The notes beneath the pieces were generated by a model. It did not search any database. It was not told where the DNA came from and saw only the letters and a list, made by a program, of their open reading frames with translations. A program made the translations under genes and the position numbers. Shown here in pieces: positions 7,507 through 12,982 of a stretch of DNA of 43,190 bases. Location of the stretch: the IMG/VR virus record IMGVR_UViG_3300021960_000160, positions 1-43,190 of that record. The stretch is one strand, 5' to 3'. The stretch's first letter is position 1. Every line of letters starts with the position of its first letter. Origin of the DNA: a virus.

Positions 7507-7685
7507 TTGCTATTTTTATAATCAAGCACAAACCCAATCGCTACAAGTAAATTCATTCCTACTGAAGAGGCTATCTCCACCAAGTCATGAAACGAATGTA
7601 TCGATAAATGCACATGCCCTACAATCCAAAAAGGTATGGCTAAGTTTTGGCTTATCCAAATAAGTGTAAACTTAACTAGCCTCAT
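7503..7685 (-). CDS. Small membrane protein (60 aa), possible holin
   Basis: 60 residues with two hydrophobic segments (about 5-27, FTLIWISQNLAIPFWIVGHV, and about 35-55, LVEIASSVGMNLLVAIGFVL) and a short charged tail DYKNSK. The start overlaps the last 14 nt of groEL and the end overlaps the lipoprotein start, so it is translationally coupled. Size and topology would allow a small holin paired with the lipoprotein, but no family was recognised and no endolysin lies beside it. Confidence 0.5.
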   Translation of the reverse strand: MRLVKFTLIWISQNLAIPFWIVGHVHLSIHSFHDLVEIASSVGMNLLVAIGFVLDYKNSK

Positions 7686-9267
7686 AAGTTCTCGCCATTG
7701 TTACAATCGCATTAGTAGATAGTATGGTCACCGCAACACTTACAGCGTTTTGTAGTGCCTGCTTTGTTACCTTCATGGGGTCTATAATTCCAAGCTCTAT
7801 TAGGTCACCTTCTTTCCCGCTCTTCACATCCAGACCTATGTTCTTCTCGTTATACACTCTACTGTTCTGTATCCCTGCGTTCTCTTGTATCTGCTTAAGC
7901 GGCTCTAGCAGCGCCCCCCCCAAAATCGCCTTGGCGATTTTTTTTGAGCTACTTTTTGACCCTTTTAGTAATAAACCCTCTTGATACAGAGCCAGTCCTG
8001 CCCCAGGGAGTATGCCTTCCTCTAGGGCACTACGGACTGCGCACACTGCGTCATCAACTCTATCGAACAGTTCCTTTTGCTCTAGGTCTGTGTTCCCACC
8101 TACGTAAATAACACCAACCCCACCTGTGAGGGATGCTATACGAGAGAGGATAAACTCCTTGTCCATCTTCTTAACTGTTACGGAATGGGCTTCCCAGAGC
8201 TGTGCTACCCTCTTATCGATTAGCTTCTCATCCACATGAGAATCATCTTTGATTATTATACTAGAGTCTTTCCCTACGATTATCTTCTTTGCACGACCCA
8301 GGTCTTCAAAGGACATAATGCTCATATCGTCTCCAGTTTTTTCTGAAAAATAAGTAGCCCCTACTGACAGAGCTATGTCTTGCATCAGTTCATGTTGCTT
8401 ATAGCCAAAGGAGGGTGGAATTATGGCACAAAGCTTCAAGCTGTTCTTCATCACATTCGCCGCTAGGGTGTTTATGACTTGTTGTGAACAAGGCGCTACT
8501 ATTAATAATTTTTTTCCTTCATTGATAATTGGTTTTAATATATTCTCAATGACAAGTATGTTGTTTATCTCTGCATCAGATACAAGGACATGTACATCCT
8601 CCATGATACACTCATCCTTTTTTTGATTGTTGATAAACAGAGGCGATGAGTACCCTCTGTCTATCTTCAATCCGTTTGTGGTTTCAAAGCCGGTCTCAGA
8701 CCCTTGAGCTTTCTCCACCGTTACTATCCCGTTTTTTCCTATAGATGTGTATGTGTCTGCTATTATCTTCCCTACATGGGTGTCATTGTTTGCAGATATG
8801 GTTGCCACATCTAGTAATTTTTTATCGGACACTTTGCGTGAGCGCTTCTTTAGATTGCTCACTACATCCTCGGTCAAAGAAACCATATCACGTAGGACCT
8901 GGGTTTTATTGTCTGCATCTTCAAGCTCCTCTATACCTGTGCGAACTAATGCTTCTGTCAGAACAATAGCCGTAGTCGTTCCATCCCCTGCATTAGCTGC
9001 AGTACGAGACGCTGCCTCTCTCATCATCTGAACCGCTAGGTTCTCTACCGGGTCTAATAGTTGTATGGACTTAGCTACAGTAACCCCATCCTTAGTCACA
9101 GTTATCCCATGGGTATGACTAGCTGACTCTATTAGAACAGTATTACCCATAGGCCCAAGCGTAGACTTTACAGCCTTAGACATTTTCGTTATTCCTTTGA
9201 TTAGTTTAGACCTAGCCTCTTTAGAAAAGTGCAAGTCTTTCGGTGAGTACCCTCCAGTAGTTTCCAT
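7672..9267 (-). CDS. groEL: Phage-encoded GroEL-type chaperonin
   Basis: 531 residues, close to cellular GroEL (about 545). Conserved elements run in order: STLGPMGNTVLIES (ATP pocket), TKDGVTVAKSI, the GDGTTTA nucleotide motif with its catalytic-region Asp, and a DDAVCAVRSALEEGILPGAG segment carrying the ATPase Asp equivalent to D398. The C-terminus lacks the GGM tail. The apical domain (about 190-370) is diverged, for example with Cys-Ser-Gln-Gln and FGYKQHELMQDIA. It should form the folding ring working with the GroES-like gene downstream, perhaps for large virion proteins. It has its own TATATTTG promoter at 9287-9294. Start MET-TGGYSPKDLHF was chosen as the first ATG after that promoter. 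Confidence 0.95.
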   Translation of the reverse strand: METTGGYSPKDLHFSKEARSKLIKGITKMSKAVKSTLGPMGNTVLIESASHTHGITVTKDGVTVAKSIQLLDPVENLAVQMMREAASRTAANAGDGTTTAIVLTEALVRTGIEELEDADNKTQVLRDMVSLTEDVVSNLKKRSRKVSDKKLLDVATISANNDTHVGKIIADTYTSIGKNGIVTVEKAQGSETGFETTNGLKIDRGYSSPLFINNQKKDECIMEDVHVLVSDAEINNILVIENILKPIINEGKKLLIVAPCSQQVINTLAANVMKNSLKLCAIIPPSFGYKQHELMQDIALSVGATYFSEKTGDDMSIMSFEDLGRAKKIIVGKDSSIIIKDDSHVDEKLIDKRVAQLWEAHSVTVKKMDKEFILSRIASLTGGVGVIYVGGNTDLEQKELFDRVDDAVCAVRSALEEGILPGAGLALYQEGLLLKGSKSSSKKIAKAILGGALLEPLKQIQENAGIQNSRVYNEKNIGLDVKSGKEGDLIELGIIDPMKVTKQALQNAVSVAVTILSTNAIVTMARTYEAS

Positions 9268-10403: not shown

Positions 10404-10601
10404 ATGAGAAAAATTACATTTAATGAGTCAAAGGAAATAATCGAAGTAATATTAAAATTAGCAGATGATTATAAAAAAGGAAGATTTGATAAGAAGATAC
10501 TTGAGGAAGTTATTACAAAAATTTACAAAGATTCAGGTTGCCAGACAGAAAAGGAAATCCAGAAAATTGTAGACAATTCATTCAGCAAGTTCCTCGGCTA
10601 A
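10404..10601 (+). CDS. Small helical early protein (65 aa)
   Basis: 65 residues, starting MRKITFNESKEIIEVILKLA, with KIYKDSGCQTEKEIQKIVDN and SFSKFLG at the end. All-helical by composition. First gene after the strong early promoter, with the recurring ACAAATTATG start context. First-expressed small proteins of this kind are often host-takeover factors, but nothing in the sequence identifies one. Confidence 0.6.
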   Translation: MRKITFNESKEIIEVILKLADDYKKGRFDKKILEEVITKIYKDSGCQTEKEIQKIVDNSFSKFLG

Positions 10602-10606
10602 GCGAG

Positions 10607-10662
10607 GTTAAAGAGGCATTAGGCTTAGTGCGTTCCAGTCTTCGGACTGGAGGTTGTTTAAC
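10607..10662 (+). ncRNA. Structured RNA element with GG-loop and TTCG-loop hairpins
   Basis: Closing stem GTTAAA (10607-10612) with TTTAAC (10657-10662). Inside are hairpin GCATTA-GGCT-TAGTGC (10616-10631) and hairpin TCCAGTC-TTCG-GACTGGA (10634-10651). It begins 5 nt after the stop of the 65-residue gene. The layout (closing stem, GG-loop hairpin, TTCG-loop hairpin) parallels the three T-arm-bearing elements downstream but is not the same consensus. No T-run follows, so it is not a plain terminator. Confidence 0.55.
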
Positions 10663-10679
10663 TTAAAAACTAACAAATT

Positions 10680-10799
10680 ATGAACTTTGAATTTAATTGT
10701 GCATACTGCGACAAACCAGTAGCAACGACAACAACACCAGAAGGATTTTTTCAAGTCCTTGATGGGTGTGAATGTATAACTAATAATAACAAATCATGA
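10680..10799 (+). CDS. Small zinc-ribbon-like protein (39 aa)
   Basis: 39 codons, starting MNFEFNCAYCDKPVATTTTP and continuing EGFFQVLDGCECITNNNKS. The C-x2-C...C-x-C pattern could bind one zinc. It starts in the AACAAATTATG context and overlaps the ArdC gene start by ATGA, hence translational coupling. Function unknown. Confidence 0.6.
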   Translation: MNFEFNCAYCDKPVATTTTPEGFFQVLDGCECITNNNKS

Positions 10800-11683
10800 A
10801 AAACATATACGATAAAATCAATGACCAAGTCCTAGAGGGCTTGGAGAAAGAAGGCTTGAACTGGTTCAGACCATGGAAGTCTGGACAGGCTAATCAGCCG
10901 ATGAACTACTCAACTGGGAAGTTTTACAAAGGCTTTAACATCTTCATGCTCAACTTTGAGATGGTCGATAAGGAGTATGAGTATAACCAGTGGATGACCT
11001 ACAAACAGGCTCAAGCTAAAGGTGGACAGGTCAAGACTGGCTCAAAGTCTACTGATGTTTACTTCTACAAAGTTTCTTACCAGAACACTAAAACAGGAGA
11101 GTATTCAGATACTCCTACAGGTGACCTTAAAGACTGGAGAAAGACCTTTGCGATTAGATACTTCAAAGTATTTAATATCGCCCAGACTGAAGGCTTAGAG
11201 CCACTACCAGTGGAGGAGTTTGAGCCAACTGAAGACCAGACTAATGAGATGGCTAAGAACCTGTCAACAGGATACTTAGAGAGAGAGTCAATCACTATCA
11301 ATCCATTTGGTAGGAGTGCATCTTATAGTCCATCCAGAGACCACATTGAGATGCCATCACTGGAGACCTTCTGTGACTCGGACTCATACTACAAGACTTT
11401 GTTTCATGAGATGGCTCATTCAACTGGTCATGAGACTAGGCTCAAAAGAGCCACTCTAATGGATGTTGCACACTGGGGTGACAATACCTACTCCAAGGAG
11501 GAGTTAGTCGCTGAGATATCAGCTATGTACCTTGTAGGGATATTGGGACTTGAACCTCAAGACTCGACCTTCAATTCACAGGCTTATATCAAGGGATGGT
11601 GCAAACACCTTAGAGACAAGTCCAGAGAGTGTGTTAATGCGATGCAACAAGCTACCAAGGTAGTGGAGTTCATCCAAGGATAG
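10796..11683 (+). CDS. ardC-like: ArdC-like antirestriction protein with zincin domain
   Basis: 295 residues. The N-terminal part ('IYDKINDQVLEGLEKEGLNWFRPWKSG...PMNYSTGKFYKGFNIFML', 'WMTYKQAQAKGGQVKTGSKST') matches the ssDNA-binding N-domain of ArdC. The C-terminal part carries a gluzincin site HEMAHSTGH (H204, E205, H208) with EELVAEISA about 30 residues on supplying the third Glu ligand. Known ArdC proteins protect incoming DNA from restriction. Position early in the rightward operon fits a counter-defence role on DNA entry. The stop codon TAG lies inside the 5' strand of the RNA element at 11678-11719. Confidence 0.88.
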   Translation: MKNIYDKINDQVLEGLEKEGLNWFRPWKSGQANQPMNYSTGKFYKGFNIFMLNFEMVDKEYEYNQWMTYKQAQAKGGQVKTGSKSTDVYFYKVSYQNTKTGEYSDTPTGDLKDWRKTFAIRYFKVFNIAQTEGLEPLPVEEFEPTEDQTNEMAKNLSTGYLERESITINPFGRSASYSPSRDHIEMPSLETFCDSDSYYKTLFHEMAHSTGHETRLKRATLMDVAHWGDNTYSKEELVAEISAMYLVGILGLEPQDSTFNSQAYIKGWCKHLRDKSRECVNAMQQATKVVEFIQG

Positions 11684-11719
11684 CATGGTGCTTGGGGAGG
11701 TTCGATTCCTCCCCTATTC
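11678..11719 (+). ncRNA. tRNA-elbow-like RNA element A
   Basis: Three-way junction. Closing stem GGATA (11678-11682) with TATTC (11715-11719; one G-U pair). Mini-hairpin GCA-TGG-TGC (11683-11691). 2-nt linker TT. Then a T-arm, GGGGAGG (11694-11700), loop TTCGATT, CCTCCCC (11708-11714). The loop is a perfect tRNA T-loop closed by G-C. The stop codon of the ArdC gene (11681-11683) is inside the structure. No U-tract follows. Confidence 0.75.
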
Positions 11720-11764
11720 ACGACTTAAATGTCAATAAATAAATAGTAACTAAATAAACAAATT

Positions 11765-12070
11765 ATGAAAAACGATTTTAAAGATAAAGTTAACTGCTTA
11801 AAATTCTCTATCGGAGACAGGTTTGAATTATCAATCTCTGATGTAGGTAGGGGAGGAGGAGCATGTTGGAAGGAAGTGTTAATATGGGATGCTGAATTTG
11901 AGTCTGAATTTTCAGATAAAAAAGGAGGATTTCTAGACAACTTCAACGAAGGGTGCTTAGGTGTTAATGGTCTGCATGAGGTAATCCTCAAAGCAGTCAA
12001 ACACTGCAACAATGTACTCATGAATGAGATGATTGAAGAGGGTGATAAAAGGTTCATCACTTTAGACTAG
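11765..12070 (+). CDS. Hypothetical early protein (101 aa)
   Basis: 101 residues, MKNDFKDKVNCLKFSIGDRFELSISDVGRGGGACWKEVLIWDAEFESEFSDKKGGFLDNFNEGCLGVNGLHEVILKAVKHCNNVLMNEM... Mixed alpha/beta, with two Gly-rich turns (GRGGGACW, NEGCLGVNGLHEV). I do not recognise a family. It starts in the ACAAATTATG context. The TAG overlaps the closing stem of RNA element B. Confidence 0.6.
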   Translation: MKNDFKDKVNCLKFSIGDRFELSISDVGRGGGACWKEVLIWDAEFESEFSDKKGGFLDNFNEGCLGVNGLHEVILKAVKHCNNVLMNEMIEEGDKRFITLD

Positions 12071-12107
12071 CTTGGAGCAGGGGAGGGTTCGACTCCCTCC
12101 TTAGTCT
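12064..12107 (+). ncRNA. tRNA-elbow-like RNA element B
   Basis: Closing stem AGACTA (12064-12069) with TAGTCT (12102-12107), 6 bp. Mini-hairpin GCT-TGG-AGC (12070-12078). Linker AG. T-arm GGGAGGG (12081-12087), loop TTCGACT (12088-12094), CCCTCCT (12095-12101). Compared with element A, every stem has changed on both sides while pairing is kept, including the third pair of the mini-hairpin (A-T to T-A). The stop codon TAG 12068-12070 lies within it. Confidence 0.75.
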
Positions 12108-12126
12108 CAATGTTTACAGGGCTTTA

Positions 12127-12159
12127 GGAATTGTCAAATATTCTTTGTAGCTTTACAAA
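12127..12159 (+). promoter_or_regulatory. Promoter-like repeat GGAATTGTCA-N11-TAGCTTTACAAA, copy 1
   Basis: GGAATTGTCA (12127-12136) and TAGCTTTACAAA (12148-12159) are separated by 11 nt and lie 20 nt after RNA element B and 36 nt before the 234-residue gene. The same pair with identical spacing recurs at 12950-12982. The second box resembles a -7 TAnnTTT(G/A) element and the TTG a -33. Confidence 0.55.
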
Positions 12160-12195
12160 CATTATACAAACATTTTACTAACTAAATTAAAAATT

Positions 12196-12900
12196 ATGAA
12201 TACAGAAAATAAACAACACAAATTAAACACTAACGAGTATCAACTGCTTCACGAGTGGTTGAGGTCACTCAATAAAGTCCAAGAACATAGACCCGATAAA
12301 ATTACTATATCTGATTATGCTAGCTATGTATTATCACAAAACCCAACCGAGTGGTGGGCCAATTATGAAAACCATTTAGCAAATTCATTTAAACTATCTG
12401 ATGGCTCTTATTGGGCTAACAATGGAAAGTATCAAAAGTTTGCTGATAAGGTTGAAAAGCTAGTGCCTATTAGAGATGCGGTAATAAAACATCTTCCTTA
12501 CTCTCTTGAGCCTAAGCAATCATTTAAACCTTTGCTTGAATGTTTCAGAGTGTACTCTAATATCTACTACGATTTGTACAACAATGGTGGCACAAATAAG
12601 TATGATAGAAGAGAAGTACCTAATGAACTTTACGGAGATTATTCTTGGGAGTATTACTGGAGGGATGATACTGACGAAGAAGTGGTTGATACCATCGACA
12701 AGTATTTAAAGTTGCCGGAAAGCAAGAGCCTAAAGTATAACTACCAAGAGGAAGTTGAAGCTTACTACGATGGGGGTAGGTCGGCCGCCAATAGATACTA
12801 TATCGAAAGAGTCGGAGACCAACTCCTAGAGAAACTCCAAGAAGCCTACAAGAGTGAAAATGCTCATCTCTTAGAAAGGCTTGAAGGAGTCGAGGCATAG
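12196..12900 (+). CDS. Hypothetical acidic early protein (234 aa)
   Basis: 234 residues, rich in Tyr, Glu, Asn and Trp ('NPTEWWANYENHLANSF', 'YSWEYYWRDDTDEEVVDTIDKYL', 'EEVEAYYDGGRSAANRYYIERVGDQLLEKLQEAYKSEN'). Mostly helical and acidic, with no recognised catalytic motif. Size, acidity and place among antirestriction and ART-like genes would fit a DNA-mimic or host-factor binder, but this is a guess. The TAG is the first base pair region of RNA element C. Confidence 0.6.
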   Translation: MNTENKQHKLNTNEYQLLHEWLRSLNKVQEHRPDKITISDYASYVLSQNPTEWWANYENHLANSFKLSDGSYWANNGKYQKFADKVEKLVPIRDAVIKHLPYSLEPKQSFKPLLECFRVYSNIYYDLYNNGGTNKYDRREVPNELYGDYSWEYYWRDDTDEEVVDTIDKYLKLPESKSLKYNYQEEVEAYYDGGRSAANRYYIERVGDQLLEKLQEAYKSENAHLLERLEGVEA

Positions 12901-12939
12901 GGATGCATGGTGCGAGGGCAGTTCGATTCTGCCCATCCC
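12900..12939 (+). ncRNA. tRNA-elbow-like RNA element C
   Basis: Closing stem GGGAT (12900-12904) with ATCCC (12935-12939). Mini-hairpin GCA-TGG-TGC (12905-12913). Linker GA. T-arm GGGCAG (12916-12921), loop TTCGATT (12922-12928), CTGCCC (12929-12934). Third member of the set, again starting at the last base of the TAG stop. It is the most symmetrical copy, with all 14 pairs Watson-Crick. Confidence 0.75.
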
Positions 12940-12949
12940 ACAAAGATTT

Positions 12950-12982
12950 GGAATTGTCATTTCAGTTCCATACCTTTACAAA
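12950..12982 (+). promoter_or_regulatory. Promoter-like repeat GGAATTGTCA-N11-TACCTTTACAAA, copy 2
   Basis: GGAATTGTCA (12950-12959) and TACCTTTACAAA (12971-12982) are again spaced by 11 nt, 10 nt after RNA element C and 20 nt before the start of the ART-like gene at 13003. The recurrence with exact spacing supports a real promoter or regulator-binding element. Confidence 0.58.

Follow-up and report, generated by a model that had tools for sequence, protein, structure and literature searches.

tRNA-LIKE ELEMENTS IN THE WINDOW

The window analyzed here is a stretch of viral DNA of 43,190 nucleotides (nt) (IMG/VR record IMGVR_UViG_3300021960_000160, positions 1 to 43,190), in which three copies of a small tRNA-like element, built from a closing stem, a mini-hairpin and a T-arm, overlap the stop codons of successive genes. 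The three elements belong to a real and widespread RNA family, as confirmed by covariation, and they may be sites at which host enzymes cut phage mRNA. A first-pass annotation, made from the letters of the window alone, had placed the copies at 11678-11719, 12064-12107 and 12900-12939, overlapping the stop codons. Both statements were right (copy 2 is 12065-12106 without its sixth pair), and all three TAG codons touch the 5' strand of the closing stem. Copies and stop codons are listed below, with scores from covariance model R1; base +1 is the first base of an element, ORF denotes open reading frame, and positions 73 to 76 follow tRNA numbering.

11678..11719, + strand: tRNA-like element copy 1, GGATA-GCATGGTGC-TT-GGGGAGG-TTCGATT-CCTCCCC-TATTC, with A73 and C74 at 11720-11721 (R1, 65.5 bits, E 2.9e-24)
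11681..11683, + strand: stop codon TAG of ORF 10796-11683, within the closing stem of copy 1; the product is an ArdC-type anti-restriction protein (PF08401 and PF18818)
12065..12106 (12064-12107 if the sixth pair is counted), + strand: tRNA-like element copy 2 (R1, 63.0 bits, E 3e-23)
12068..12070, + strand: stop codon TAG of ORF 11765-12070, within the closing stem of copy 2
12900..12939, + strand: tRNA-like element copy 3 (R1, 49.1 bits, E 1.6e-17)
12898..12900, + strand: stop codon TAG of ORF 12196-12900, its third base being base +1 of copy 3 (the common TA/R register)

Copy 1 consists of a 5-bp closing stem, a GCA-TGG-TGC hairpin, a TT linker and a 7-bp T-stem with a TTCGATT loop. The corresponding parts of copy 2 are GACTA/TAGTC, GCT-TGG-AGC, AG, GGGAGGG/CCCTCCT and TTCGACT, followed by T73 and C74; those of copy 3 are GGGAT/ATCCC, GCA-TGG-TGC, GA, GGGCAG/CTGCCC and TTCGATT, with an 11-bp stack, followed by A73 and C74. 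The junction architecture that the first-pass annotation saw in all three was borne out by R1, which was built from 40 copies: it matched exactly these three in the window (E 1.6e-17 to 2.9e-24), the next best match having an E value of 0.45. A motif pattern likewise gave three matches on the + strand and none on the - strand or in the sequence read backwards.

EVIDENCE FOR AN RNA FAMILY

The fairest evidence comes from scans in which pairing was free to fail. A fixed pattern with ten stem pairs left free, run over IMG/VR and fetched genomes, had 79 distinct matches, and all ten pairs form in 45 of them, compared with a chance expectation for fully paired matches of ∼0.004 (0.375 per pair). 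When the hairpin stem around TGG was varied, both other stems were intact in 54 of 80 matches for GC/GC, 48 of the 76 matches listed for GT/AC and 9 of 31 for GA/TC, and none of the 7 matches to the noncomplementary control GC/CG folded. About half of the matches listed for a looser motif pattern in IMG/VR form both stems; abundance figures from several of these scans are lower bounds. These scans of the collections, together with the control for mismatched hairpin stems, rule out coincidence. A structural descriptor had 113 matches, compared with 1 in reversed sequence, but its loci were fetched via the motif, and the 113 is therefore a count of copies rather than a test of chance.

The covariation claimed for the stems of the window copies was upheld on a larger scale. 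In alignment A1 (40 gapless copies, the source of R1), both partners vary in 12 of the 15 pairs, and pairing is kept in 99.8% of cells, compared with 41 to 56% when the strands are slid, although these seed copies were selected for pairing and the pattern scans are the fair test. Homologs beyond chance, the check proposed with the first-pass annotation, were found in numbers by the 40-copy model, in phages and in IMG/VR contigs. Single-sequence folding was not significant for the window copies (z of −1.6, −0.7 and −2.0), and the minimum-energy fold of copy 1 leaves out the closing stem. Because single-copy thermodynamics are unremarkable, it is the comparative covariation that carries the evidence.

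Cells that depart from Watson-Crick pairing on the coding strand are G-U in 26 cases and A-C in 4, which indicates RNA rather than DNA. This excess bears on the idea of a module boundary at the DNA level, i.e., an integrase, recombination or cassette site whose structure acts in single-stranded DNA. tRNA T-arms often serve tyrosine recombinases as attachment sites, and the elements flank single accessory genes, as such a boundary might. However, the stem sequences of the copies have no common core, and the tolerance of G-U on the coding strand and the fixed orientation with the genes favor RNA, making a DNA-level role extremely improbable. The G-U excess also counts, indirectly, against an integron attC site, a class defined by R-box core sequences that IntI recognizes.

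ANATOMY OF THE ELEMENT

The element is ∼42 nt long, and its commonest form (47 of 72 distinct copies) has a 5-bp closing stem, a 3-bp hairpin with a TGG loop, a 2-nt linker, a 7-bp T-stem whose first pair is G-C, a TTCGANT loop and the closing strand without a spacer, followed by N73 and C74. The stack of closing stem (as acceptor) and T-arm, usually 5 plus 7 bp, is a contiguous helix of 12 bp (13 with a −1:73 pair) in 112 of 127 copies. The anticodon arm is absent, there being only the 9-nt hairpin and 2-nt linker between the closing stem and the T-stem. The 14th base past the T-loop corresponds to tRNA position 74 and is C in 82% of the 127 copies (103 of 113 in the pattern set), with variable neighbors; hence the conserved C is C74. 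Positions 73 and 75 are unconstrained across copies overall, and some constraint is seen on the base pair at +1 and on A at −1. Positions 75 and 76 are lineage specific and C74 is general: from position 74 on, all 13 parsed copies of Gordonia phage VanLee read C-G and all 10 copies of G038 read C-A-A, and 10 of the 13 T-arm elements of phage G022 (L207, 8700-13200) end in a full N73-CCA, which may reflect a host with CCA-encoding tRNA genes.

The T-loop reading of TTCGANY proved sound. The loop is nearly invariant, and its 54-58 pair is T-A in 120 copies and swapped to A-T in five; the variant T-loops ATCGTYT or CTCGTTT occur in L206, L211 and L218 (54-58 pair A-T, or C-T). The further suggestion that TGG mimics the D-loop side of a tRNA elbow gained support from the constancy of the triloop while its hairpin stem covaries, as well as from the 12-bp stack and C74, two features absent from the first-pass annotation. 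By analogy with tRNA, we infer that TGG would dock onto the T-loop in an elbow-like manner.

The element resembles canonical tRNA in its 12-bp acceptor/T stack with T-loop TTCRANY, but ARAGORN detected no tRNA genes in the window and the elements had no match to RF00005. The T-arm of copy 2 aligns to that of transfer-messenger RNA (tmRNA; RF00023) with an E value of 0.003, although the best score of 14.1 bits is far from the gathering threshold of 47. A degenerate tRNA or tmRNA was rejected on these grounds. No family in Rfam 15 matches the element at gathering score, and the Rfam ribozyme models match none of the elements, only a separate Pistol ribozyme in the window and hammerheads elsewhere. 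Intrinsic terminators were also rejected, in agreement with the first-pass annotation: no T-run follows any window copy, and the VanLee operon described below has no gene-strand terminator.

PLACEMENT AT GENE ENDS

An ORF of ≥80 codons ends at the element on the element's strand in 97 of 125 copies, compared with 19 of 125 on the other strand. The stop codon lies at bases −2 to +1 (TA/A or TA/G) in 29 of 113 copies, compared with 3 at −3 and 2 at −1, and in 28 of 109 copies of an overlapping pattern set; like the ORF-end counts, these are inflated by related contigs. Gene ends in unannotated contigs are those of ORFs rather than gene calls, and the greedy ORF caller is too crude for gap statistics there. 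The next ATG is commonly 13 to 45 nt downstream of the element, too close for a promoter between element and next gene to be likely.

In one annotated early operon of VanLee, which runs from gene 162 to gene 133, 16 internal gaps measure ≥78 nt, and every one of them contains a single copy; there is none in the 362-nt gap upstream of gene 162, the probable promoter region. No sigma-70-like promoter or gene-strand terminator was found inside this operon, and its genes are therefore probably cotranscribed. In Gordonia phage Cafasso, one copy is on the other strand, and there too it follows a gene encoded on its own strand.

Placed right behind the stop codons of successive genes, or overlapping them, a stable GC-rich hairpin might simply block 3' exonucleases and stabilize the upstream gene, in the manner of repetitive extragenic palindromes and with no specific cleavage. 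A plain hairpin would suffice for this, however, with no need for C74, a 12-bp ruler or loops of invariant TGG and TTCGA; the slot is moreover common to self-cleaving ribozymes (see below), which argues for cleavage. We consider an uncut barrier improbable.

DISTRIBUTION ACROSS PHAGES AND BACTERIA

Well over 100 contigs of IMG/VR carry the element, and a single genome can have as many as 17 copies. A search of 48 records with R1 found it in every one, with 1 to 16 matches each at an E value of ≤0.001, some of the weakest being T-arm only. Cultured phages bearing it are Gordonia phages VanLee, Cafasso and Morgana and Mycobacterium phage Zolita, in which a copy sits directly 3' of the gene 86 stop codon. 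No match was found in Flavobacterium phage elemoF, Polaribacter phage Leef_1, Cellulophaga phage phi46:1 or Gordonia phage Clawz, and Gordonia phage GMA2 and Maribacter phage Panino had mostly T-arm-type matches and no convincing copies. BLASTN of single copies against phages retrieved mostly T-arms of real tRNAs and was informative only for VanLee and the Zolita group of Mycobacterium phages. Among bacterial genomes, 5 of 198 Bacteroidota and 2 of 200 Pseudomonadota had the element at an E value of ≤1e-6, each count including one known beforehand; because of this rarity, the element is essentially a phage RNA. A contig binned in an Aliivibrio metagenome-assembled genome (L126; contig C134 of G049) carries three elements and a Pistol ribozyme, nearly as in the window, and is probably a misbinned phage contig.

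Such abundance, in early regions and with tRNA identity features kept but the anticodon absent, could also serve a decoy, in which tRNA mimics titrate host tRNA-processing enzymes or tRNA-attacking defense nucleases. Strict placement at stop codons would be unnecessary for a decoy, and many phages have a single copy; this role appears very improbable.

In VanLee (NC_073474.1, 65454-67367), a tRNA-Arg adjoins a gene for a Ro-like (TROVE) RNA-binding protein, and a Y RNA may lie nearby. A link between the element and phage Ro protein was rejected, as TROVE occurs in only 2 of 25 records.

RIBOZYMES IN THE SAME SLOTS

Self-cleaving ribozymes occupy the same type of site as the element, in the window and in other element-bearing contigs. 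The window has one, two genes upstream of the first element and a few hundred bases before the ArdC gene:

10592..10658, + strand: Pistol self-cleaving ribozyme (Rfam RF02679, 67.5 bits), overlapping the stop codon TAA at 10599-10601 of ORF 10404-10601

Contigs related to the window (L149 and L126/L230) also have Pistol. Hammerheads were found with a descriptor that had no match in 7 Mb of reversed sequence; in element contigs they share the element's strand and, with few exceptions, sit at a stop codon with the next ATG a short way downstream (L056, L028, L047, L049, L099, L104, L159, L007, L165, L215 and L301), and Rfam agrees in five contigs. They occur in 10 of 147 element contigs and in none of 176 element-free contigs from the same scans (Fisher P = 3e-4, which is optimistic as about four lineages are represented). 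The hammerheads in this slot hold the stop codon in their 5' part.

OTHER FEATURES OF THE WINDOW

A promoter-like repeat, GGAATTGTCA...TANCTTTACAAA, follows two of the elements, and no such pair would be expected by chance:

12127..12159, + strand: promoter-like repeat, GGAATTGTCA...TAGCTTTACAAA, just after copy 2
12950..12982, + strand: second copy of the repeat, just after copy 3

The repeat resembles the −33/−7 type of promoter of Bacteroidota, which suggests that it may act as one. The primase encoded in the window has similar counterparts in a Manatee Spring phage genome and in Flavobacterium phages, and the window looks like the genome of a Bacteroidota phage. A GroEL-like chaperonin (PHROG 5725) is encoded on the - strand at 7672-9267.

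PROPOSED FUNCTION

We propose that the elements are mRNA punctuation sites cut by host tRNA-processing enzymes, with RNase P as the leading candidate, a reading that we hold with a little less than even confidence. Cleavage-type punctuation is the most likely role because the invariant features of the element are those read by tRNA-processing enzymes. Of the roles listed in the first-pass annotation, the processing point is now the best supported, since self-cleaving ribozymes occupy the same slots of the same operons; mRNA 3' protection and tRNA decoys, which it also named, are rated lower.

Lying at the 3' end of an early gene, the element would be transcribed as part of a polycistronic phage message and would fold into the 12-bp acceptor/T-arm stack, with the T-loop docked to the short "D" hairpin and the end at N73-C74. 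The host tRNA-processing machinery might then recognize this fold, RNase P measuring 12 bp from the T-loop, contacting the RCC(A) end and cutting at or beside base +1, perhaps with later trimming of the 3' end or action of RNase Z. Cleavage would part the mRNAs of neighboring genes, as hammerhead and Pistol would do in the same slots, and the benefit could be separate lifetimes and translation of these mRNAs. A terminating ribosome would mask the element until the end of translation.

Several observations weigh against this proposal, above all the position of the stop codon. The stop codon spans −2 to +1 in the 29 of 113 copies mentioned above and +4 to +6 in copies 1 and 2 of the window, and a −1/+1 cut by RNase P would thus trim or remove it, unless cleavage waits until translation is over or UA is restored to UAA by an A-tail. 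C75 is unconserved outside G022, the stack is 11 bp long in about 1 in 10 copies, and none of the 26 phages checked encodes a CCA-adding enzyme. In addition, the ribozymes of these slots cut near their 3' edge, as is known for hammerheads, and spare the stop codon; processing on the 3' side would match them more closely.

The elements could, then, be makers of 3' ends, processed on the 3' side by RNase Z or by exonuclease trimming to N73-C74 and CCA addition; such processing would leave the upstream mRNA with its stop codon and a tRNA-like, stable 3' end and would free the 5' end of the downstream mRNA. As the stop codons overlap the element's 5' strand, only a 3' cut keeps the upstream message whole, which is also the arrangement in the hammerheads of the same slots, and the conserved C74, with full CCA in G022, fits such an end. 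However, C at position 74 disfavors bacterial RNase Z, and there is also some constraint on the +1 pair and on A at −1. We regard 3'-end formation as a serious but rather unlikely alternative.

IMPLICATIONS

The element constitutes a widespread phage RNA family that is absent from Rfam and has unusually clean covariation. It escaped notice because gene prediction ends at its border and programs for tRNA detection require an anticodon. If RNase P cuts it, phages have turned an essential, universal host enzyme to the processing of their own mRNA, in convergence with mitochondria, and the long-puzzling hammerheads of phages would gain a function. Each copy is also a ready-made 42-nt tRNA minimum for studies of elbow recognition, and the cultured Gordonia phages allow direct tests.

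COMPARISON WITH KNOWN SYSTEMS

No description of the element was found in the open-access literature searched. The tRNA-like domain of tmRNA is similar in its T-arm, as aligned above, and in missing an anticodon arm, but the element lacks the 7-bp acceptor stem and the mRNA-like part. Plant virus tRNA-like structures also place tRNA mimicry on viral mRNAs, and that of turnip yellow mosaic virus is cut by RNase P, according to work cited in PMC11143913; these structures are 3' terminal, single and pseudoknotted, while the phage elements are internal, repeated and simple.

RNase P reads the T-loop, the 12-bp distance from it to the cleavage site and the RCCA interaction, and it cuts the C4 RNA of phages P1/P7 and a polycistronic mRNA (PMC11143913). 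Like the minimal substrates of RNase P, which are acceptor/T-arm hairpins, and like C4 RNA, the element has a T-loop and the 12-bp spacing. Its 3' end may be of the RCC(A) type: 103 of 113 copies have C74, but N73 varies, and G022 alone conserves C75-A76. Unlike minimal substrates, it occurs naturally, in many copies and at the ends of genes; a D-like hairpin is inserted between the fifth and sixth pairs, and C75 is mostly unconserved. One element-bearing contig (L087, 3615-3689, + strand) also has a c4-2 RNA, of the c4 antisense RNA family; RNase P acts on the P1/P7 member of that family.

For hammerheads bordering prophage genes, ardA among them, a role in dividing long phage transcripts has been proposed (Perreault et al. 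2011, PMC3088659). Like the element, these hammerheads are intergenic and border single genes or short blocks that include an anti-restriction gene, and here both occur in the same slot of the same operons. The tRNA-like element has no ribozyme core, however, and would rely on host enzymes.

A further parallel is tRNA punctuation in mitochondria, where tRNA folds lie between the genes of a polycistronic transcript and where, after the tRNAs are cut out, many mRNAs end in U or UA and are completed by adenylation (Ojala et al. 1981, as reviewed in PMC6540609); the commonest register of the element similarly splits the stop codon as UA/A or UA/G. Unlike the mitochondrial separators, those of the phages are not tRNAs, have no anticodon arm, have a helix of 5 plus 7 rather than 7 plus 5 bp and belong to double-stranded DNA phages. 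A fully mitochondria-like system in double-stranded DNA phages of Bacteroidota, Actinomycetota and probably other hosts, with host RNase P cutting early polycistronic mRNAs in the UA/A register, stop codons completed or shielded and the mimics interchangeable with hammerhead and Pistol, is conceivable but doubtful. The element is new as an RNA family; as a principle, it is a variant of mitochondrial tRNA punctuation and of the punctuation proposed for prophage hammerheads.

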